From Roseovarius faecimaris (GTDB lineage: Bacteria > Pseudomonadota > Alphaproteobacteria > Rhodobacterales > Rhodobacteraceae): a stretch of DNA of 64,000 nt. The stretch's first letter is position 1. The number at the start of each line of letters is the position of its first letter. The notes beneath the pieces are model-generated. The model saw nothing but the letters and a program-made list of their open reading frames with translations, did no database searches and was not told where the DNA came from. A program made the position numbers and the translations under genes. This document shows, in pieces, positions 5,089-15,115 of the stretch. Where the stretch lies: the NCBI RefSeq assembly GCF_009762325.1, contig NZ_CP034348.1:2052501-2116500 (forward strand), written 5' to 3'.

Positions 5089-6408
5089 ATGAAGTGCTCA
5101 GCTCTTGTTACCATCACGTCCCTCTTGGCAATGTGCACCCTGCCCGCCCAGGCGCAGGATTTGAACGGGGCGAACCTGACACTTTCAGGCACCATCACTC
5201 AGAGCGGTTTTGGCCAAAACTACTTTTCTGCGCAGAACAATACTTTCGATGGGCGCGCCTGCATAGGTCCCGCCTGTGATGGCACGGAACCGTTCGAACA
5301 GGGCCCGTTGAGGTTGAAATGGTCCGAACCCGACATCTTGTTTCAAGACAGCTCAGTCTCTGGCGCTTTTTCAAGCAATGACTGGCGGTTGGTCGTCAAT
5401 GATGTCAGCCAAACTTTCTTTGCCGTTGAGGACATTGACGGCGGCACAATCCCGTTGAAGATCGCCGGTGGCGTGCCAACCAACAGCCTGTATCTTTCAA
5501 GTTCAGGAAATATCGGATTTGGCACGTCTCTTCCCCAGGAAGCGCTTCACGTGACCGGAGGCACCCCCAATCTCAGGTTCGAGGATGTTATAGGCACGAC
5601 CTACCAATGGGATGTGGGCGGCAATCACATCGGTTTCTTTGTTGAGGATGTCACTGCCAGCCGGTTACCCTTCATTATTGCGCCAGGCGCACCCACAAAC
5701 AGTATCTATATTGCAGGTTCAGGCGGGATCGGTATGGGCACGGACCTGCCGTCCACCGGCCTGCACGTCCAAAAATCCGATGGCACCGGCGCGATCCTGA
5801 TCGAGGAAACCTCTGCCGGCACACTTGGCCAGATGACCCTTCGCAACAACGGCATCACCTTTTTCACGCTGGAGGACACGTCCATCGCTGACGTGGACAA
5901 TTCGGGCCGCAAGTGGAACTTCCAGAACCAGGCAGGCACCTTCCGCGTCACCACCGCCCCCGGGGGCCCCGGCGAGATCGAGATGATCCTGACGCCCGCG
6001 GGTGACATGACCATCGAAGGTGCTTTGACCCAGAACTCGGACAAGAACAAGAAAATGGCGATCGAGCCGGTGGACCCCGGTGAGATCCTTCAGAAAGTGG
6101 CCGAATTGCCCGTCTCAAGCTGGATGTACAAGGACAACGAGGCCCTCGGCATCCGCCACATGGGGCCCATGGCACAGGATTTCCACGCGGCCTTCGGCCT
6201 TGGCGCTAGCGAGACGGGGATTTCCTCGCTCGACACCTCGGGCGTCGCACTGGCGGCCATTCAGGCGCTGGCCAGTGAAAACGCGGCGCTGCGGACCGAG
6301 TCTGCCAAGCTCAAGGCACAAACCAAAGCAGAAACGGACGCTTTGAGGGCACAATTGACCGCGCTCACTGCTCGGCTTTCCGCGATGGAAATGCAGATCA
6401 CAGACTGA
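5089..6408 (+). CDS. secreted fibre-like protein with C-terminal S74 chaperone domain
   Basis: This 439-aa protein has a signal peptide at residues 1-23 (cleavage near AQA-QD). The body contains repeated blocks ending in TNSLYL/TNSIYI plus G-x-G-T-x-LP, typical of beta-rich fibre stalks. Residues 317-392 match the Peptidase_S74 intramolecular chaperone: NSDKNKK start, SWMYKDNEALGIRHMGPMAQDF core. A Leu-rich coiled-coil tail of about 45 residues follows. In phage tail spikes this domain trimerises the fibre and then cleaves itself off with the Ser of the SD motif. A surface appendage or adhesin role is inferred. Residues about 219-310 are nearly repeated in the broken gene downstream. Confidence 0.75.
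   Translation: MKCSALVTITSLLAMCTLPAQAQDLNGANLTLSGTITQSGFGQNYFSAQNNTFDGRACIGPACDGTEPFEQGPLRLKWSEPDILFQDSSVSGAFSSNDWRLVVNDVSQTFFAVEDIDGGTIPLKIAGGVPTNSLYLSSSGNIGFGTSLPQEALHVTGGTPNLRFEDVIGTTYQWDVGGNHIGFFVEDVTASRLPFIIAPGAPTNSIYIAGSGGIGMGTDLPSTGLHVQKSDGTGAILIEETSAGTLGQMTLRNNGITFFTLEDTSIADVDNSGRKWNFQNQAGTFRVTTAPGGPGEIEMILTPAGDMTIEGALTQNSDKNKKMAIEPVDPGEILQKVAELPVSSWMYKDNEALGIRHMGPMAQDFHAAFGLGASETGISSLDTSGVALAAIQALASENAALRTESAKLKAQTKAETDALRAQLTALTARLSAMEMQITD
5759..6020 (+). repeat. segmental duplication, copy 1 (inside the S74 gene)
   Basis: About 262 bp, closely similar to 7982-8241 with a constant offset of 2223. The encoded stretch from GAILIEETSAG to TPAGDMTI is almost identical in the two proteins. 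Confidence 0.85.
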
Positions 6409-6729
6409 TCCAGTTGAACACCTGACGTGTGTAAGCGCCCGCTTTCGACGCGGCTGTGATTGAATTTATTGAAAAAATCTGCCAAACCTTTGGCCTTAGA
6501 GCGGGGAAACTGTGCACATGTTTTCCCGGCTTTGCTTCTCGTCTTTGTTTTGGGGAGGATACGATATGAGACTCAATACTCTGCTAACCGGCATTCTGGC
6601 TTTTGCGGTCGCGACGCCTGCCGCGGCACAGGTCGTCAATCTCACCCCCAACAACAGTGACGCTGGAGTAGCCCCCTGAAAGTGGTCCACCAACTGGGAT
6701 AGATTATCCCGCAAATTGGAGGATCAGCG

Positions 6730-7008
6730 ATGGCTGGAAAACGAGAGAAGCCCGAAGAGATTGTTTCGAAGCTTCGACAGGTTGAAGTTCTGCAGGGGCA
6801 AGGCGCGACGATTGTCGAGGCAGTGCGCCAAATCGGCGTGACGCAACAGACGTTCTATCGATGGCGAAAGCTCTATGGCGGGATGCAGCGGTCTCAGCTT
6901 GCCCGTCTGAAAGAGCTGGAGAAAGAGAACCAAAGGCTGCGTCGAGCGGTGTCCGATTTGACCTTGGATAAGCTCATCCTGACGGAAGCCGCAAAGGGAA
7001 ACTTCTGA
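6730..7008 (+). CDS. IS3-family transposase OrfA
   Basis: The 92-aa protein has an N-terminal helix-turn-helix of the HTH_Tnp type (EEIVSKLRQVEVL, then QIGVTQQTFYRWRKLYGGM). A leucine-zipper-like helix follows (LKELEKENQRLRRAVSDLTLDKLIL). It recognises the element's ends. The final codons run over AAAGGGAAAC, a possible slippery site for the -1 shift that makes the full OrfAB transposase. The TGA stop is at 7006-7008. Confidence 0.9.
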   Translation: MAGKREKPEEIVSKLRQVEVLQGQGATIVEAVRQIGVTQQTFYRWRKLYGGMQRSQLARLKELEKENQRLRRAVSDLTLDKLILTEAAKGNF

Positions 7009-7040: not shown

Positions 7041-7856
7041 GTGCGGCAGGAGCTTGGCGTGTCTGAACGCCGCGCCTGCCGCGCACTTGGGCAGCATCGA
7101 TCGACGCAGCGCAAGGTCCCCCAAGGCCGTGCTGATGAAGCGCGATTGACCGACGACATCATTGAGCTGGCCGACCAGTACGGGCGCTATGGGTATCGCA
7201 TGGTCACTGGTTTGCTGAACAACGCTGGGTGGTGTGTGAATCATAAGCGGGTTGAACGGATATGGCGGCGTGAAGGGCTGAAGGTTCCACAGAAACAGAA
7301 GAAGAAAGGGCGGCTTTGGCTGAACGACGGATCATGCGTGCGTCTCAGGCCCGAACGACCGAACCACGTTTGGTCCTATGACTTCGTGCAGGATCGAACC
7401 GCTGATGGGCGCGTCTATCGAACGCTCAACATCATCGACGAATACACCAGGGAGGCGCTGATGATCCGCGTCGATCGCAAACTCAACTCAACCGATGTGC
7501 TGGATGCACTGACCGACCTGTTCATCCTGCGTGGCCCGCCGGAGTGGATAAGATCCGACAACGGACCAGAATTTATCGCTCAGAAGGTGCGAGACTGGAT
7601 CGCCGCCGTCGGAGCAAAAACGGCCTACATCGAACCAGGGTCGCCTTGGGAGAATGGATATTGCGAAAGCTTCAACGCCCGTTTCCGCGACGAGCTACTC
7701 AACGGCGAAATCTTCTATACCTTACGCGAGGCTCAAATCCTGATCGAGCAATGGCGCGTCCACTACAACACGGTCAGACCCCACAGCGCATTGGGTTACC
7801 GCCCACCCGCGCCCAAAAGCATCGTTCCAATGGACCAGAGGCCCACGATGCACTAA
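7041..7856 (+). CDS. IS3-family transposase OrfB (rve integrase domain)
   Basis: The 271-aa protein is shown from GTG 7041. The frame is open further upstream (LSPSRRRKCVDHVRQ), so the natural product is probably an OrfAB fusion made by -1 frameshifting. The order is an HTH_21 region (YGYRMVTGLLNNAGW, VNHKRVERIWRREGL) and then the RNase H-like core. Catalytic residues are visible as D in YDFVQDRT, D in IRSDNGPEF, and E in SPWENGYCESF. The terminal RPHSALGYRPPAP signature is complete. Nothing suggests inactivation. Confidence 0.9.
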   Translation: MRQELGVSERRACRALGQHRSTQRKVPQGRADEARLTDDIIELADQYGRYGYRMVTGLLNNAGWCVNHKRVERIWRREGLKVPQKQKKKGRLWLNDGSCVRLRPERPNHVWSYDFVQDRTADGRVYRTLNIIDEYTREALMIRVDRKLNSTDVLDALTDLFILRGPPEWIRSDNGPEFIAQKVRDWIAAVGAKTAYIEPGSPWENGYCESFNARFRDELLNGEIFYTLREAQILIEQWRVHYNTVRPHSALGYRPPAPKSIVPMDQRPTMH

Positions 7857-7981
7857 CAATTAAACCGGACCACCCGAAGGGGGCACGCCACCTCTGATCA
7901 TCGAAAACGGGGCGATGACCAATGCGCTCCGGATCGCGAATGACGGGAATGTCGGACTTGGCGCCGGAGTACCAAGCGTGG

Positions 7982-8241
7982 GCCTGCATGTGCAGCGGGG
8001 CGATGGGAACGGCGCGATCCTGATCGAGGAGACCTCTGCGGGCACCCTCGGACAGATGACCCTTCGCAATAACGGCATCACCTTCTTCACACTCGAAGAC
8101 ACGTCCATCGCGGCTGGCGACAACACCGGCCGGGCCTGGAACTTCCAGAACCAGGCGGGGACTTTCCGAGTGACGACCGCGCCGGGCGGACCGGGCGAGA
8201 TCGAGATGATCCTGACGCCCGCGGGCGACATGACGATCAAG
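7982..8241 (+). repeat. segmental duplication, copy 2 (inside the broken fibre gene)
   Basis: Counterpart of 5759-6020. Differences are mostly third-position changes plus a short variable stretch (AGDNTGRA against DVDNSGRK), so the duplication is old enough to have diverged under protein-level selection. Confidence 0.85.
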
Positions 8242-8641
8242 GGGTCACTCACCACCGGCGGCGGCACCTGTGGCGGGGGCTGTGACGCTGTCTTCTCGGA
8301 CGACTACGATCTGCCCACGATTGCCGAGCATCAGGCGCAGATGTGGGCGGCGGGACACCTGCCTAATGTCGGCCCGACGGTGGAGAACGAACCGATCAAC
8401 GTCTCCGACAAGCTGGGGCGCATGCTCAACGAGCTGGAGCACGCGCATATCTATATCGGGCAGCTGCATGACCGGCTTTCGGAAAGCGAGACGGAAAAAG
8501 CCGATCTCCGGGCGATCATCGCCGATCAGAACGCACGATTGGCACGGCTCGAAGCTGCGGTCACCGCTCTGAGCGCGGAGTAACTCCGAGGGCGCCATCG
8601 CCGACTGGCATTCCTGCGCCCAGCTCCCTTGCCTCTGGGCG

Positions 8642-9031
8642 CTACCCGCGCGGGTCCACGGTATCGGCCAGCGCCTCGGCGCGGGCGGCGATCTCGGCCA
8701 AGGCGTCGGTCACGTCGGCGGGCACCACGGGCACTTCGACCCTCTCTGGCTCGGGCTGGGGCGCGTTGCGCAACTGCGCCAGTTCGGCCTCTTTCTCGGC
8801 CATCTTGTCCTCCAGCTCGCGCAGCCTGTCCTGCACGCCCGCCGTCTTGTCCGCCAGCATCAGCCCCGCCATCAGCAGCATCCGCTGCTCGGGGATACGT
8901 CCGATCTGGCTGGTGAGCACCTGTGCTTCTTCGTTCAGCATGGCGGCGGCGGATTTCAGGTAATGCTCTTCCCCCTCCTGGCAGGCCACGTCGAAGCTGC
9001 GGCCTCCGATATCGATCTGTACTTCGGGCAT
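8642..9031 (-). CDS. zapA: cell division protein ZapA
   Basis: The 129-aa protein fits ZapA, which bundles FtsZ filaments at mid-cell. The N-terminal beta-rich part (VQIDIGGRSFDVACQEGEEHYL) is followed by the helix with EEAQVLTSQIGRIPEQRMLLMAGLMLAD, a ZapA signature, and a coiled coil (DRLRELEDKMAEKEAELAQL). The last 40 residues are an Ala/Glu-rich tail longer than in E. coli. Its ATG overlaps the stop of the preceding coiled-coil gene by one base (TAATG), so the two are translationally linked. A GC hairpin (8616-8642) overlaps the stop codon but has no T-run. Confidence 0.9.
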   Translation of the reverse strand: MPEVQIDIGGRSFDVACQEGEEHYLKSAAAMLNEEAQVLTSQIGRIPEQRMLLMAGLMLADKTAGVQDRLRELEDKMAEKEAELAQLRNAPQPEPERVEVPVVPADVTDALAEIAARAEALADTVDPRG

Positions 9032-9519
9032 TATGCGTCCTCCGATGATGCGGCGGCGGCCTTGGCGATGCGGCCCAGCTCGGCCATGACCGCCTCGGTC
9101 TCGGCGCGGTCGGCGGCGCGGGCGGCGCGCAGCCCTTCAAGCTCGCTCAGCATGGCCTTGTTGATCAGGTGCGGCTCGGCCACGCCTGCCTCGATGGCCT
9201 CGCGCAGCGCCTTGTTGTTGTCGCGCAGCTGGGCATTGGCCCGGCGCAGCGATTGCAGATCGCCGTCAAGCTTGGCCAGCCCGTCGCGATGCTCCTGCAC
9301 CGCTGCCTCCGCCGCGGCTTCGGCCGCATCGAGCTTTTCCTTCATCCGCTTGAGCCGCTCTTCGAGCTGGGCATTGGCGGTCTGCTCATCTTCCAGCTGC
9401 TGTCTGAGCGCGTCCATCTCATCGGCATCGGCCCCGTCTGCGGACATCCCCTCAAGCCCCTGGCTGATCCGGTCCAGCGCCGCCGTGATCCGCCCTTGCA
9501 ACTCTTCGATCTGGCTCAC
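9031..9519 (-). CDS. coiled-coil protein co-transcribed with zapA
   Basis: The 162-aa protein is almost entirely predicted coiled coil: heptads run from about residue 35 to 110 (LRQQLEDEQTANAQLEERL and onwards) after an N-terminal helix MSQIEELQGRITAALDRI. No catalytic motif is visible. It precedes zapA with a one-base overlap, an arrangement I recall from other Rhodobacterales between zapA and transketolase. A helper role in division, perhaps as a ZapA partner, is inferred from position only. It diverges from tkt, leaving 217 nt for the two promoters. Confidence 0.75.
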   Translation of the reverse strand: MSQIEELQGRITAALDRISQGLEGMSADGADADEMDALRQQLEDEQTANAQLEERLKRMKEKLDAAEAAAEAAVQEHRDGLAKLDGDLQSLRRANAQLRDNNKALREAIEAGVAEPHLINKAMLSELEGLRAARAADRAETEAVMAELGRIAKAAAASSEDA

Positions 9520-9736
9520 CTACTCACCCCTCTTGTCTTGTCGTACCAGTCACATTTTCCCCGATACGGGCGCAAGGGACGAATCGCCCGCAGGCCCGAT
9601 TTATCCACAAGTCTACATAAGCCGCAGGGAAAATGCGCCCCCTTAACGGGGCCTTCCGGGGCTGGATGCTTGATCTTTGATCTTGGCCTGATATGCACCG
9701 GTTTGACTGATGCTGCATGATAAGGAACACGACCCC

Positions 9737-11755
9737 GTGGATATTGCTGCCCTGCGTTCTGCCAACCCCGATCACTGGATGCGCTCAACCGCCATTCGCG
9801 CGCTGACCCTGGACGCGGTGCATGCCGCCAATTCCGGCCATTCCGGAATGCCCATGGGCATGGCCGATGTGGCCACCGTGCTGTTCGACAAGCACATGAA
9901 GTTTGACGCCAAGGCCCCTGATTGGCCTGATCGCGATCGCTTCATCCTGTCGGCCGGCCACGGCTCCATGCTGCTTTATTCGCTGCTCTACCTCACCGGC
10001 TACGAGGACATGACGCTGGAGCAGGTCAAGAACTTCCGCCAATGGGGGGCGATCACCGCAGGCCACCCGGAATATGGCCACGCCAAGGGGATCGAAACCA
10101 CCACCGGCCCGCTGGGTCAGGGCATCTCCAACGCCGTGGGCTTTGCCATGGCCGAGGAAATCCTGCGCGCGCGCTACGGGCGCAAGCTGGTGGATCATTA
10201 CACCTATTGCATCGCGGGCGACGGCTGTCTGATGGAAGGCGTCAGCCAGGAGGCGATCGGCATCGCCGGCCGGCACCGCCTGGGCAAGCTGATCGTGTTT
10301 TGGGACAACAACAACATCACCATCGACGGCACGGTCGAGCTGTCGGACAGCACCAACCAGGTGGCGCGTTTCAAGGCGGCAGGCTGGCATGTGATCGAAA
10401 TTGACGGTCACGACCCCGAGGCCATCGACGCGGCCATCACCAAGGCCAAGGCCACCAAGAAGCCCTCGATGATCGCCTGCAAGACCCATATCGCCCTGGG
10501 CCATGCCGCACAGGACACCTCCAAGGGCCACGGCGCCCTCACGGACGAGGCGCAGATGGCCACCGCCAAAGCGGCCTATGGCTGGACGACCGGACCTTTC
10601 GAGGTCCCGGGAGAGATCAAATCCTGGTGGGAAGGTGTGGGCACCCGTGGTGCCTCCGAGCGCGCAGCCTGGGAGGCGCGGCTGTCCGAGGCCTCGGCTC
10701 AGCGCCAGGCCGAGTTTGCCCGGATCTTCGCGCGGGACGTCCCCAAGAAGCTCTCGGCGCGGATCAAGGCGCTGAAAAAGCAGATCAGCGAGGAAGCTCC
10801 CAAGGTGGCCACCCGCAAGAGCTCGGAAATGGTGCTGGAGGTGATCAACCCGATCATGTCCGAAACCGTGGGCGGCTCGGCCGATCTGACCGGTTCCAAC
10901 AATACCAAATCGGGCGATATGACCGCCTTTGACGTGGATAACCGCAAGGGCCGTTATGTCTATTGGGGCATTCGCGAGCATGGCATGGCCGCGGCGATGA
11001 ACGGCATGGCCCTGCATGGCGGCATCCGCCCCTATGGCGGCACCTTCATGTGCTTCACCGATTATGCGCGCCCGGCGATGCGTCTGGCGGCCCTGATGAA
11101 AATCCCGACCGTCTTTGTCATGACCCATGACAGCATCGGTCTGGGCGAGGATGGCCCGACCCACCAGCCGGTCGAGCATCTGGCAATCTCGCGGGCGACG
11201 CCCAACACCTATGTGTTCCGGCCCTGCGATACGGTGGAGACGGCAGAAGCGTGGGAACTGGCGCTGACCTCGAAGGAAACCCCGTCGGTCCTGTCGCTCA
11301 CGCGGCAAGGCGTGCCGACGCTGCGCACCGAGCACAAGATGAAGAACCTGACCGCCCAAGGCGCTTACGTGCTGGCCGAAGCGGAAGGCAAGCGGCAGGC
11401 GATCCTGCTGGCCACCGGCTCGGAGGTTTCGGTTGCGATGGCCGCGCGCGATATCCTTCAGGCCAAGGGGATCGGCACGCGTGTCGTCTCCATGCCCTGC
11501 TGGGAGCTGTTCGAACAGCAGGACGAGGCCTATCGCAAACGCGTCCTGCCCGGCGGATCGGCTGTGCGTGTGGGCGTCGAGGCGGCTGTCCGGCAAGGCT
11601 GGGACCGCTGGCTTTGCGGCGAACGCGGGCGCGAGGCGCGTGCAGGTTTCGTCGGTATGGACAGCTTCGGCGCGTCGGCCCCTGCCGGCACTCTTTATGA
11701 GAAGTTCGGCATCACCGCCGAAGCCGTGGCCGAAAAGGTTCAGTCGCTGCTCTGA
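9737..11755 (+). CDS. tkt: transketolase
   Basis: The 672-aa thiamine-diphosphate enzyme moves two-carbon units between sugar phosphates in the pentose phosphate pathway. The GDGCLMEG loop that starts the TPP/metal site is at residues 161-168, with conserved His in SGHSGMPMG and TAGHPEYGH. The catalytic Glu is in [12 protein letters not shown], and the substrate-binding [11 protein letters not shown] motif follows. GTG 9737 is preferred because AAGGA sits 9 nt upstream and homologues begin MDIAALR. The ATG at 9710 would add nine residues without a ribosome site. A REP-like repeat follows the gene. Confidence 0.95.
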
Positions 11756-11778
11756 AGGCGGCACCGCAAACATCACAC

Positions 11779-11802
11779 GTAGGGTGCGTGATTTCACGCA
11801 CC
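11779..11802 (+). repeat. REP-like 24-bp element, third copy
   Basis: Identical to 1272-1295, with the following TTGC also conserved. It lies in the 70-bp gap between tkt and the lipoprotein gene. Confidence 0.65.
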
Positions 11803-11825
11803 TTGCGGCACCACAGGGGGGACCG

Positions 11826-12374
11826 ATGATCCGACAGCTCACCGCGCTCGCGATCCTGGCCGCCCTTGGTGCCTGCGGTGATGTGGAGGTATCGTCCGCT
11901 CCCATCGAAGGCCCGCGCACTAAAGACGCCGACGCGTTCGCCATCGCCTATCTCGACCTCATGCAGGCGCGCTCTTTCAGGCGCGGCGTTGAATATTGCG
12001 GCCTGTTCGGGCGCGACGCCGAGGGTTATGTCATCGCCACAGCTCCGCTTGTGGGGCGACTTTCCAGTTGCCACACCCCGGATTTTCCCGACGGTTTCAA
12101 CGCCTTCGCCACCTACCACTCGCACAGCACCTACGACATCGAGGCCGATAGCGAAGTGCCCTCGTCCAACGATGTGATCGCCGATCAGATCGACGGGGTC
12201 ATTGGCTATATCAGCACGCCGGGGGGACGCGTCTGGCGCAATGAGGACGGTGTCGCCACCCTGGTCTGCGGGCCTGGCTGCATCACGGCGGATCCGAATT
12301 TCGTGCCCGAGACCTTCGGGCCCATCCGCACCCGCTACACCATCATCGACCTGCGCGAGCGTGAAGCGTCCTGA
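11826..12374 (+). CDS. DUF4329 (JAB-like) lipoprotein
   Basis: The 182-aa protein has a lipoprotein signal ending in the lipobox LGAC (Cys17). Residues 34-116 resemble DUF4329, a JAB1/MPN-like fold. E56 lies in GVEYCGLF, H98-x-H100 in TYHSHSTYD, and S113/D116 in PSSND, giving the spacing of a JAMM zinc site. DUF4329 is often found in toxin or RHS-type proteins; here it is a stand-alone envelope lipoprotein. Substrate and role are unknown. It converges on dddQ with 6 nt between the stops, so there is no room for a separate terminator. Confidence 0.7.
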   Translation: MIRQLTALAILAALGACGDVEVSSAPIEGPRTKDADAFAIAYLDLMQARSFRRGVEYCGLFGRDAEGYVIATAPLVGRLSSCHTPDFPDGFNAFATYHSHSTYDIEADSEVPSSNDVIADQIDGVIGYISTPGGRVWRNEDGVATLVCGPGCITADPNFVPETFGPIRTRYTIIDLREREAS

Positions 12375-12380
12375 GTGCGG

Positions 12381-12977
12381 TTACGGATCCTTCCAGAGCG
12401 CCCACATCGCCAGCAACGGCGCCTCGCCCGATCGCATCGCGTGCAGGATGCCGGGCCGGTTGTAGAACGTCCCGCCGATCCCGGGCGTGAACCAGCCGCG
12501 GCCCTCCTGCCAGAAGCCACCTTCGGTGAACACCAGATAGCTTTCTTCCGGTGGATGGTCATGATCCGGGTAGCGCACCCCGGGCGCCAGCAGGGACACG
12601 CCCAGCCACACGCCCGGCACCTCCGCCAGCCCCTGCGGGCCAATCAGCATCGCATTGGCATGACCCTCGGGATAGGCCTCATTGGCCCCCGCCCCACCGC
12701 CTGTGCGCCTGTACCAGTGCAGATGCGGCTCCAGCCCGACAAGGGCGTGCGCCAGGCTCCGGACCGGCCCTTCCGGCAATCGTGAGGCATCCGCGCCCTG
12801 CGCGAAATACCGGCAGGCGGGCAACCGCTCCGGCACCGCGCCGCGCAAGTGCAGGGGGCCGCGCAGCGCGGCGAATATCCGCGCCACCGAGGCCCGCCCG
12901 CGCGGATCGCTCACCTGGGTTGCATAGGCCGCCTCGGCCGCGTCGATCGCCGTGCGCAACCGCCTCTCTGCCGTCAT
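12381..12977 (-). CDS. dddQ: DMSP lyase, DddQ-type cupin
   Basis: The 198-aa cupin should cleave dimethylsulfoniopropionate to acrylate and dimethyl sulfide. The metal and catalytic residues Y136, H139, H141, E145, Y147 and H179 have the same spacing as Tyr120, His123, His125, Glu129, Tyr131 and His163 of the Ruegeria DddQ structure, as I remember it. LHWYRR before the cupin and APLLAMW after it also fit the family. Its ATG overlaps the stop of the DUF808 gene by four bases (ATGA), so the two form one operon. The related cupin lyases DddW, DddL and DddK are the main alternatives. Confidence 0.82.
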   Translation of the reverse strand: MTAERRLRTAIDAAEAAYATQVSDPRGRASVARIFAALRGPLHLRGAVPERLPACRYFAQGADASRLPEGPVRSLAHALVGLEPHLHWYRRTGGGAGANEAYPEGHANAMLIGPQGLAEVPGVWLGVSLLAPGVRYPDHDHPPEESYLVFTEGGFWQEGRGWFTPGIGGTFYNRPGILHAMRSGEAPLLAMWALWKDP

Positions 12978-13942
12978 CCCTCACCCTTTCCGTTCAGCCG
13001 CCTCCACAGCGGCGTGATCACACCGATCCCGAGCGGGATCAGCGCCAAGCCCAGCACCAGCCCGAAAAGCCCGTCGAGCCCGGCCGTGACCCCCCATGTC
13101 ACGGCACCAGACCACGCGCCCGCGCCCTCTGCGGCGCCCTCGGCCACATGATGCACCCAACCATAAGGCGCATGCCAGCCGATCTGGTCCAGTGCATGCA
13201 GAACGATCGAGCCGCCAACCCACAGCATCGCCGCCGTGCCGACGACCATCAGCAGGGTCATGACCCCCGGCATGGCCTTCACGATCCCGTGCCCCAGCGC
13301 CCGGGTCAGGCCCAGCCGTCCGCGCGCCGCCAGATAGAGCCCCACATCATCCGCCTTCACGATCAGCGCCACGGCGCCATAGACCAGAACGGTCATCCCG
13401 ATGGCCACCATCGCCAGGGTCGCCGCCTCCATCCAGATCGAACTTTCAGGGATCGCGGCCAGCGCGATGGTCATGATCTCGGCCGACAGAATGAAATCGG
13501 TCTTGATGGCCCCGGCCACCTTGGCCTCTTCCAGATGCGCGGCATCTCCCGATGCGTGACTGCCATCCGGCCCGCCATGCCCTTTGCCGATCCCCACCGC
13601 ATGGGCCACCTTCTCGGCCCCTTCATAGCACAGATACATCCCCCCCAGCAGCAGCAAAGGCGGGATCATCCAGGGCGCGAAAGCCGACAGTAACAACCCC
13701 GCCGGCAGCAACACAAGCAGCTTGTTCTTGATCGACCCAAGGGCGATGCGCCCCACGATGGGCAACTCCCGCGCGGGCGAAAAACCCTGCACATATTTCG
13801 GCGTGACGGCGGCATCGTCGATCGCGGCCCCCGCCGCCTTGGCCCCGGCCTGGGCCGCCTGTCCAGCCACATCATCCACCGAGGCCGCGGCGATCTTGGC
13901 AATCCCCGCCACATCGTCCAGCAACGCCATCAATCCGCTCAT
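12974..13942 (-). CDS. DUF808 (YedI-like) inner membrane protein
   Basis: The 322-aa polytopic protein begins MSGLMALLDDVAGIAK, the family start. An ATG 33 bases further upstream is less likely. The order is an N-terminal amphipathic region with VDDVAG, about five hydrophobic segments (LLVLLPAGLLLSAFAPWMI, MTVLVYGAVALIV, VMTLLMVVGTAAMLW and others), and a Lys/His-rich loop with HASGDAAHLEEAKVAGAIKTDF. DUF808 has no known function. Four-base overlap with dddQ ties it to DMSP metabolism by context, possibly as a transport or membrane-stress partner. That link is speculative, since the family is widespread without dddQ. Confidence 0.8.
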   Translation of the reverse strand: MSGLMALLDDVAGIAKIAAASVDDVAGQAAQAGAKAAGAAIDDAAVTPKYVQGFSPARELPIVGRIALGSIKNKLLVLLPAGLLLSAFAPWMIPPLLLLGGMYLCYEGAEKVAHAVGIGKGHGGPDGSHASGDAAHLEEAKVAGAIKTDFILSAEIMTIALAAIPESSIWMEAATLAMVAIGMTVLVYGAVALIVKADDVGLYLAARGRLGLTRALGHGIVKAMPGVMTLLMVVGTAAMLWVGGSIVLHALDQIGWHAPYGWVHHVAEGAAEGAGAWSGAVTWGVTAGLDGLFGLVLGLALIPLGIGVITPLWRRLNGKGEG

Positions 13943-14113
13943 CCCGCCCTGCCCTTCTCCCGCGAGGCCGCCCATTCGGGCGGAAGAGCACCACAGTTCC
14001 GGGGTTTGCGCAAACGGTTATCGCTACCACGCTCCCGCCGGTCATTTTCCGCTTTCGCCACTCGGGGCGGCCCGCTAAGAGGCCCCCAAATCCTCACCTT
14101 TCGGGAGACATCC

Positions 14114-15115
14114 ATGACCATCAAAGTCGGTATCAACGGATTTGGCCGCATCGGCCGCTGCACTCTGGCCCATATCGCCGCCTCGGGGCGCGACGATATC
14201 GAGGTCATCAAGCTCAACGCCACCGGCCCGCTGGAAACCGCCGCACACCTGATCAAATATGACAGCGTGCATGGCCGCTTCCCCAATGAGATCACGCTGG
14301 GCGAGGGCACCATGGATCTGGGCCGTGGCCCGATCAGCATGTTCTCGACCTACGAGATGGACGAGCTTGACTGGTCCGGCTGCGACGTCGTTCTGGAATG
14401 CACCGGCAAGTTCAACGATGGCGAGAAGGCGAACAAGCACCTCGAGCGCGGCGCGGGCAAGGTTCTGCTCTCGGCCCCGGGCAAGAACGTGGACCGCACG
14501 GTTGTCTTCGGCGTCAACGATGGCGACCTGCAGGCCGGTGAGCGGATGATCTCGAACGGTTCCTGCACCACCAACTGCCTGGCCCCCGTGGCCAAGGTGC
14601 TGCACAACGCCTTTGGCATCGAAAGCGGCATCATGACCACGATCCACGCCTATACCGGCGACCAGCCCACGCTCGACCGTCGCCACAAGGACCTCTACCG
14701 CGCCCGTGCCGCGGCCATGTCGATGATCCCGACCTCCACCGGCGCGGCCAAGGCCCTGGGCGAGGTGCTGCCCGCCCTCAAGGGCAAGCTTGACGGCTCG
14801 GCCATCCGGGTGCCCACGCCGAACGTGTCGGCGGTGGACCTGACCTTCGTGGCAGGCCGCGACGTGACCGAGGACGAGGTGAACGCCGCGGTCGAGGCCG
14901 CCGCCAATGGCGAGATGAAAGGTGTTCTGGGCTATGACCCCGAGCCGAAAGTCTCGATCGACTTCAACCACACCGACGAAAGCTCGATCTTCGCGCCTGC
15001 GCAAACCAAGGTGATCGGCGGCCGCCTGGTGCGTGTGCTGGCCTGGTACGACAATGAATGGGGCTTCTCCGTGCGCATGGCCGATGTGGCCGTGGCCATG
15101 GGCAAGCTGGGCTGA
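14114..15115 (+). CDS. gap: glyceraldehyde-3-phosphate dehydrogenase, type I (first copy)
   Basis: The 333-aa enzyme interconverts glyceraldehyde 3-phosphate and 1,3-bisphosphoglycerate. The NAD-fold GFGRIGR is at residues 9-15, the catalytic Cys151 in SCTTN, the paired His in HAYTGDQ, and the terminal WYDNEWGFS. After beta strand 2 the sequence reads VIKLNATGPLETAAHL. An Asn (residue 35) stands where the strictly NAD-dependent paralogue has Asp (ND at 35-36), which may relax cofactor choice towards NADP. ATG 14114 follows a GGGAGA site. A strong terminator follows at once. Confidence 0.95.
   Translation: MTIKVGINGFGRIGRCTLAHIAASGRDDIEVIKLNATGPLETAAHLIKYDSVHGRFPNEITLGEGTMDLGRGPISMFSTYEMDELDWSGCDVVLECTGKFNDGEKANKHLERGAGKVLLSAPGKNVDRTVVFGVNDGDLQAGERMISNGSCTTNCLAPVAKVLHNAFGIESGIMTTIHAYTGDQPTLDRRHKDLYRARAAAMSMIPTSTGAAKALGEVLPALKGKLDGSAIRVPTPNVSAVDLTFVAGRDVTEDEVNAAVEAAANGEMKGVLGYDPEPKVSIDFNHTDESSIFAPAQTKVIGGRLVRVLAWYDNEWGFSVRMADVAVAMGKLG

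Follow-up and report, generated by a model that had tools for sequence, protein, structure and literature searches.

A DMSP-lyase-like cupin overlapping a DUF808 gene in Roseovarius faecimaris belongs to a clade distinct from DddQ

In Roseovarius faecimaris, a cupin gene begins within the last codons of a gene for a DUF808 membrane protein. We are interested in which reaction this cupin catalyzes, and in whether the DUF808 protein takes any part in it. The pair lies in a stretch of 64,000 nucleotides (contig NZ_CP034348.1, positions 2,052,501 to 2,116,500), which is called the window here; positions are counted from its first letter.

The overlapping gene pair and its surroundings

Both open reading frames and their ATGA overlap of four bases, as described in an earlier note on this DNA, are real (Table 1). 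The DUF808 frame (13942-12974, minus strand) matches PF05661 over its full length with 391.9 bits, and we saw nothing unusual in it as a member of that family. An upstream in-frame ATG would extend the frame to 13975. The start MSGL at 13942 is invariant among 29 aligned DUF808 proteins, the others having been picked because their match begins at the MSGL residue.

Table 1. Positions of the cupin and DUF808 genes, their motifs and the neighboring genes in the window
Feature	Position	Strand	Size, basis or remark
Cupin, DMSP-lyase-like family (PF16867)	12381..12977	-	198 aa; Pfam, tree, residues, model and fold
DUF808 membrane protein (PF05661)	12974..13942	-	322 aa; Pfam and start-site alignment
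ATGA overlap, cupin start codon and DUF808 stop codon	12974..12977	-	
Cupin motif 1: Tyr136, His139, His141, Glu145, Tyr147	12537..12572	-	Alignment
Cupin motif 2, metal ligand His179	12441..12443	-	Alignment
DUF4329 gene (PF14220)	11826..12374	+	Convergent with cupin; Pfam (from 11841), ATG at 11826
gapA (presumed)	14114..15115	+	Divergent border of the cupin-DUF808 pair
tkt (presumed)	9710..11755	+	Other border

We take the two bordering genes to be gapA, encoding glyceraldehyde-3-phosphate dehydrogenase, and tkt, encoding transketolase. None of the neighbors of the window cupin, namely tkt, DUF4329, DUF808 and gapA, is a known DMSP gene. A homologue of the DUF4329 gene also adjoins the cupins of two further loci (L035 and L036). 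The interval between gapA and tkt (11756-14113 in the window) is variable within the genus, containing DUF808 without the cupin, the cupin without DUF808, the cupin together with DUF4329, or all three genes as in the window. Beyond tkt, the window has two small open reading frames on the minus strand (9031-9519 and 8642-9031), the shorter of which resembles ZapA by eye, and small frames resembling these two occur near tkt in some relatives.

Family, fold and clade of the window cupin

The window cupin belongs to the Pfam family PF16867 (DMSP_lyase), which it matches with 161.8 bits (cut-off 27). Chains of solved DddQ structures match it weakly by sequence (E-values of 1.6e-5 to 0.05). We predicted its structure with a pLDDT of 95.5, and a fold search with the model ranked DddQ structures first, with Z-scores of 20.1-21.3 over 180-185 residues at 20-21% identity, followed by DddY at about 16 and other cupins at about 11. 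The model has the DddQ-type fold, in which N-terminal helices accompany the cupin barrel, as found in the DddQ structures 4la2, 5jso, 4b29 and 5cu1. DddY, with chains of 380 residues, shares the cupin core (Z-scores of 15.8-16.0), as does DddK (10.1-10.8), which has no room for the helical part because its chains comprise merely 125-137 residues; the sequences of both match the window cupin by profile only. DddU, a cupin DMSP lyase of marine bacteria, is of the same broad kind by its description (Wang et al., 2023).

The residues reported as essential in DddQ, Tyr120, His123, His125, Glu129, Tyr131 and His163 (PMC4437653), align with Tyr136, His139, His141, Glu145, Tyr147 and His179 of the window cupin. 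The four metal ligands and the two tyrosines of motif 1 are thus present, and all six residues are kept in 97 of the 97 sequences of the clade described below. The window cupin is a DMSP-lyase-like family member whose active site is complete and whose fold is that of DddQ.

The phylogenetic tree placed the window cupin in a clade of 61 rows (SH-aLRT 99). The DddQ group, with 10 rows (SH-aLRT 94), is separate from this clade and contains the PDB entries 4la2, 4b29 and 5cu1 and two further cupins of the same genome. The tree comprises 91 of 135 input rows, after removal of sequences shorter than 130 residues and of near-duplicates (at least 78% identity), and was calculated by a quick method that gave long-branch warnings, with SH-aLRT and no bootstrap as support. 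Several positions separate the two groups. Position 106 is His in 96/97 clade sequences, including the window cupin, and Phe or Tyr in 10/10 of the DddQ group; position 173 is Asn in 96/97, again including the window cupin, versus His in 10/10; and Trp192, which the window cupin shares with 97/97, is replaced by Val in 9/10. Likewise, Leu at position 194 (97/97) contrasts with Trp (8/10), and Arg at position 91 (93/97) with Thr or Ser (10/10). The window cupin has none of the DddQ-group residues Phe/Tyr106, His173 and Val192. These counts cover the 97 sequences that score at least 120 bits against a profile (A1) built from 26 clade members, and they lean towards the clade's own residues because the clade was cut by its score against a profile of its own members. 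By our own count, the Trp that aligns with Leu194 is presumably Trp178 of Ruegeria lacuscaerulensis DddQ, a residue lining the DMSP pocket. The pattern suggests that the clade has likely kept the chemistry and changed the pocket. The earlier note was correct about the six residues and the family. The name dddQ that it gave to the gene does not fit, as judged from the separate clade in the tree.

Seven rhizobial loci carry a second cupin of the PF16867 type (L119:9397-10065 and the matching places in L126, L137, L140, L149, L152 and L160), in which Phe, Gln, Arg, Phe and Phe occupy the positions of Tyr136, His141, Glu145, Tyr147 and His179 in 7/7 cases, so that the active site is lost. This conserved dead paralogue lies downstream of the genes for the electron transfer flavoprotein (ETF) wherever these were called. 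With scores of 86-94 bits, the seven sequences lie outside the 97 used for the residue counts; the one from L119 falls inside the 61-row clade of the tree on a very long branch.

The two further cupins of the genome are PF16867 genes in tandem (C2:2215.5-2216.6 kb), which are 28-29% identical to the window cupin. They are preceded by an MDR-family gene and followed by two successive enolase-superfamily genes, for which we assume a role as betaine epimerases. Farther away lie a DAO-GCV_T oxidoreductase, a class-III aminotransferase and a divergent Rieske oxygenase whose closest PDB relative is carnitine monooxygenase. This locus, too, looks like one for a methylated amine or a betaine. Inspection by eye of L173:6834-17055 (G000:C2, approximately 2211.8-2222.1 kb) added a third enolase-superfamily gene and a small GFA-like gene. 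In Roseovarius nubinhibens, dddQ1 and dddQ2 have been described as adjacent genes with linkage to an MDR gene (PMC3338564). The genome therefore has DddQ-type genes of its own in this tandem pair, and the window cupin is something else.

The window cupin could nevertheless be a bona fide lyase of DMSP or DMSOP, releasing acrylate together with DMS or DMSO, as the third such enzyme beside the DddQ-type pair and unrelated to DUF808. The six conserved residues agree with this reading, and so does the full-length DddQ fold with its Z-scores well above those of other cupins. Roseobacters can carry several lyases according to PMC3338564 and PMC5395565, and cupin Ddd enzymes cleave both DMSP and DMSOP according to PMC10686828. 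We consider it doubtful, however, in view of the separate clade with fixed residues that differ from those of the DddQ group, of window neighbors without a known DMSP gene, and of the many soil- and plant-associated Rhizobiales relatives described below, which reside in a putative N-demethylation locus.

DUF808 as a neighbor of the cupin

Among 104 distinct clade cupins, 81 of which have at least 1,400 bp of sequence on both sides, only two have a DUF808 gene in the same locus, the window cupin and that of Pseudooceanicola atlanticus. In the latter, the cupin comes first and DUF808 follows on the same strand after 114 bp with no overlap, so the adjacency is nearly private to the window and the gene orders differ: a conserved DUF808-cupin operon was not found among the 104 cupins.

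DUF808 is found in 258/394 genomes of the family, compared with 14 for the clade cupin (matches at 2.5e-49 or better). Within the genus of the window strain (84 genomes), the clade cupin occurs in 27 genomes and DUF808 in 59, with 22 genomes carrying the two together, a co-occurrence that is not significant (Fisher p 0.14, relatedness ignored). The two genes lie side by side in one of these 22 genomes, the window's own; in the other 21 they are found on separate contigs or at a distance of over 300 kb, with the reservation that G211 has a cupin fragment at a contig end, where adjacency cannot be judged. The 29 best-matching other DUF808 loci have gapA and/or tkt within approximately 1.5 kb in 26 cases and a clade cupin in none. 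The clade cupin adjoins tkt in six genomes besides that of the window (G198, G217, G192, G222, G150 and G159), with gapA on the other side in five. Those tkt-adjoining cupins that the tree includes group with the window cupin in a subclade (SH-aLRT 94). No DUF808 match was found in G198, G217, G192, G222 and G159, of which G192 and G222 are 86% and 93% complete, and DUF808 of G150 is located on another contig.

DUF808 is a common resident of the gapA-tkt neighborhood in the genus, where it and the cupin mostly occur without each other. The simplest history would be a resident DUF808 and an incoming cupin that came to lie behind it. The overlap of four bases may bring about translational coupling in the window strain while reflecting no conserved link. 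We consider the two genes to be probably neighbors by accident, their adjacency being positional.

Could the two genes nevertheless be a functional pair, in which DUF808 moves or confers tolerance to the substrate or a product such as acrylate, and the overlap keeps the ratio of the two proteins? Besides the overlap itself, the same-strand neighborhood in P. atlanticus speaks for such a pair, since a naive calculation (which assumes approximately 3,900 genes, a DUF808 frequency of two thirds among genomes and 30-53 contexts) expects 0.01-0.02 cases of a second cupin-DUF808 neighborhood, and one was found. As this exceeds the naive expectation, there may be a weak attraction between DUF808 and the cupin. 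However, the second case has the reversed order and no overlap. In Pseudooceanicola G275, moreover, the agmatinase-like gene that flanks the P. atlanticus pair adjoins DUF808 with no cupin between them, and 2/22 Pseudooceanicola genomes have the clade cupin at all. The far wider distribution of DUF808 in the family and the five out of six other tkt-adjoining cupins in whose genomes DUF808 was not found also argue against a pair. The predicted DUF808 structure (pLDDT 73.7) had no PDB match at E ≤ 0.001, and the best sequence match had an E-value of 0.76; the absent fold match is weak evidence because the model is of middling quality. Taken together, we regard a functional pair as highly improbable. 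The suggestion in the earlier note that coupling hints at a role of DUF808 in transport or tolerance of DMSP or acrylate is not borne out by two cases among 104 clade cupins, one adjacent pair in 22 genomes and a p-value of 0.14; neither the adjacency counts nor the structure search support DUF808 as a transporter or tolerance partner.

Two genomes have DUF808 at approximately 7-8 kb from a distant paralogue of the PF16867 type, with 30-35% identity (G165, C1:2744655 and 2752423; G210, C8:152086 and 143269).

Betaine-type neighborhoods of the clade and the candidate substrate

A scan of named-species genomes with the window protein as the single query found no relatives, whereas alignment A1 retrieved 227, the best 80 of which were taken as loci. 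These 80 include loci from Roseovarius, Donghicola, Pseudooceanicola and Thalassospira, and many from Rhizobium, Ensifer, Shinella, Labrys and Mesorhizobium. In 49 of the best 80 of 227, a 678-residue flavoenzyme of the OYE/trimethylamine-dehydrogenase type is encoded directly upstream on the same strand, and it lies within 300 bp of the cupin in 51/104 distinct clade cupins. Its PDB relatives include trimethylamine and histamine dehydrogenases, and from its architecture we take it to be StcD-like. StcD is the N-methylproline demethylase of stachydrine catabolism in Sinorhizobium, where stcD resides on pSymB (PMC12239276). Among the 25 matches listed for the flavoenzyme, no NCBIfam model exceeded its cut-off. 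In Sinorhizobium meliloti AK57, a replicon with the label pSymA has a copy with 89% identity, matched in three pieces, and a plasmid of Ensifer canadensis carries the pair under the labels NADH:flavin oxidoreductase and dimethylsulfonioproprionate lyase family protein. An identification of the flavoenzyme as StcD itself by means of plasmid records failed, as the records seen bear no stcD name, only "NADH:flavin oxidoreductase", and the replicon is pSymA rather than pSymB.

The companions of the cupin in the best 80 of 227 loci were counted as clusters of open reading frames, each named from one representative, and the counts are lower bounds because contig ends shorten the flanks in a number of loci. 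A TetR regulator occurs in at least 51 loci, together with the components of an importer, an OpuAC binding protein (at least 46), a ProV-like (at least 44) and a ProW-like protein (at least 41). The enzymes comprise a P5CR-like protein (at least 43), ETF beta (at least 19) and alpha (at least 12), and a Rieske oxygenase (at least 13) with 4qup (labelled monoxygenase; demethylase) and 3vca as its best PDB matches, which we take to be a stachydrine demethylase. Genes of the formaldehyde-detoxification kind, GFA (at least 9), a zinc alcohol dehydrogenase (at least 8) and an esterase (at least 7), are rarer. Judged by this gene content, the rhizobial clade locus resembles one for the N-demethylation of a betaine, equipped with a betaine ABC importer.

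The best PDB match of the binding protein is 7yle (244 bits), the DMSP-binding protein RnDmpX, a relationship that leaves room for a DMSP-like substrate. Of the pocket residues given for DmpX in PMC10030565, our reading of the alignment finds Thr64, Tyr200 and the four Trp unchanged, while Glu113 is replaced by Gln and Ala153 by Gly. Given this DmpX-like pocket, a small onium zwitterion is the probable ligand, and it may be DMSP. In the literature, no title or abstract opening among the matches listed links the clade with the betaine neighborhood, and a search for dimethylsulfoniopropionate lyase together with stachydrine found none.

In the 37 Rhodobacteraceae regions analyzed, the clade cupin occupies lineage-specific sites, and it lies behind the flavoenzyme in one of them (G507). 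The window locus also lacks the flavoenzyme next to the cupin; the closest homologue in the genome (C2:2544853, 66% identity) is approximately 480 kb away. The co-occurrence of flavoenzyme and cupin in the genus, counted at flavoenzyme identities of at least 59%, is not significant either (21/27 versus 38/57, Fisher p 0.44, relatedness ignored). With the flavoenzyme mostly absent from beside the cupin and no significant co-occurrence of the two, what is seen in rhizobia may not apply to the window strain.

On balance, we lean towards the window cupin being a metal-dependent, DMSP-lyase-like enzyme of a non-DddQ clade that acts on a betaine-type zwitterion, with DUF808 as an accidental neighbor. 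His139, His141, Glu145 and His179 would hold a divalent metal, which would bind the carboxylate of the substrate. For DddQ, a conserved tyrosine has been proposed to take the alpha proton (PMC5395565); correspondingly, Tyr147 (Tyr131 in DddQ) would abstract this proton from a betaine, a small zwitterion of the onium-carboxylate type. The leaving group would then depart from the beta carbon by beta-elimination, or a related reaction would occur at the alpha carbon, such as return of the proton on the other face. An N-methylated betaine of the stachydrine or N-methylproline type is the more likely natural substrate than DMSP, because many Rhizobiales members of the clade lie in an apparent N-demethylation locus.

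A return of the proton would make the clade enzyme an epimerase or isomerase of a betaine, which shares the alpha-proton abstraction with the preferred reading and differs from it in the reaction alone. The proposed role of the DddQ tyrosine is compatible with such a reaction, as are the P5CR-like and flavoenzyme partners and the enolase-superfamily genes beside the DddQ-type pair of the genome, with their putative epimerase role. We consider epimerization unlikely; to our knowledge, the characterized members with this active site are lyases.

If the preferred reading of a betaine-directed cupin is extended to the whole clade, the proteins that bear the label DMSP lyase in bacteria of soil and plants could plausibly, if still tentatively, be betaine enzymes (lyases or epimerases) of a stachydrine- or N-methylproline-type pathway, with a dead paralogue in some rhizobia. 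In that case, dddQ counts derived from PF16867 matches would overstate the capacity for DMSP cleavage. DMSP-lyase labels on clade members exist in plasmid records of Agrobacterium, Ensifer and Shinella; should the clade have another activity than DMSP cleavage, the label misstates the DMS potential of roseobacters and implies that rhizobia use DMSP, although their gene context points to plant betaines. By the title of Lei et al. from 2018, it is reportedly already in print that the cupin DMSP lyase and lyase-like family has members of unknown function in addition to DMSP lyases. For one branch of this family, the flavoenzyme-linked neighborhood offers a class of substrates that can be tested directly. 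The DUF808 adjacency itself looks ordinary.

Another site of the clade cupin recurs among the 37 Rhodobacteraceae regions. In 10 of them, the cupin is antisense and adjoins a terminase gene, and in nine it lies antisense between the terminase and portal genes of a cluster resembling a gene transfer agent, as exemplified by L110:6971-7591 with its flanking genes at 5596-6864 and 7648-9057, and by L210, L211, L214, L215, L217, L218 and L241-L243.
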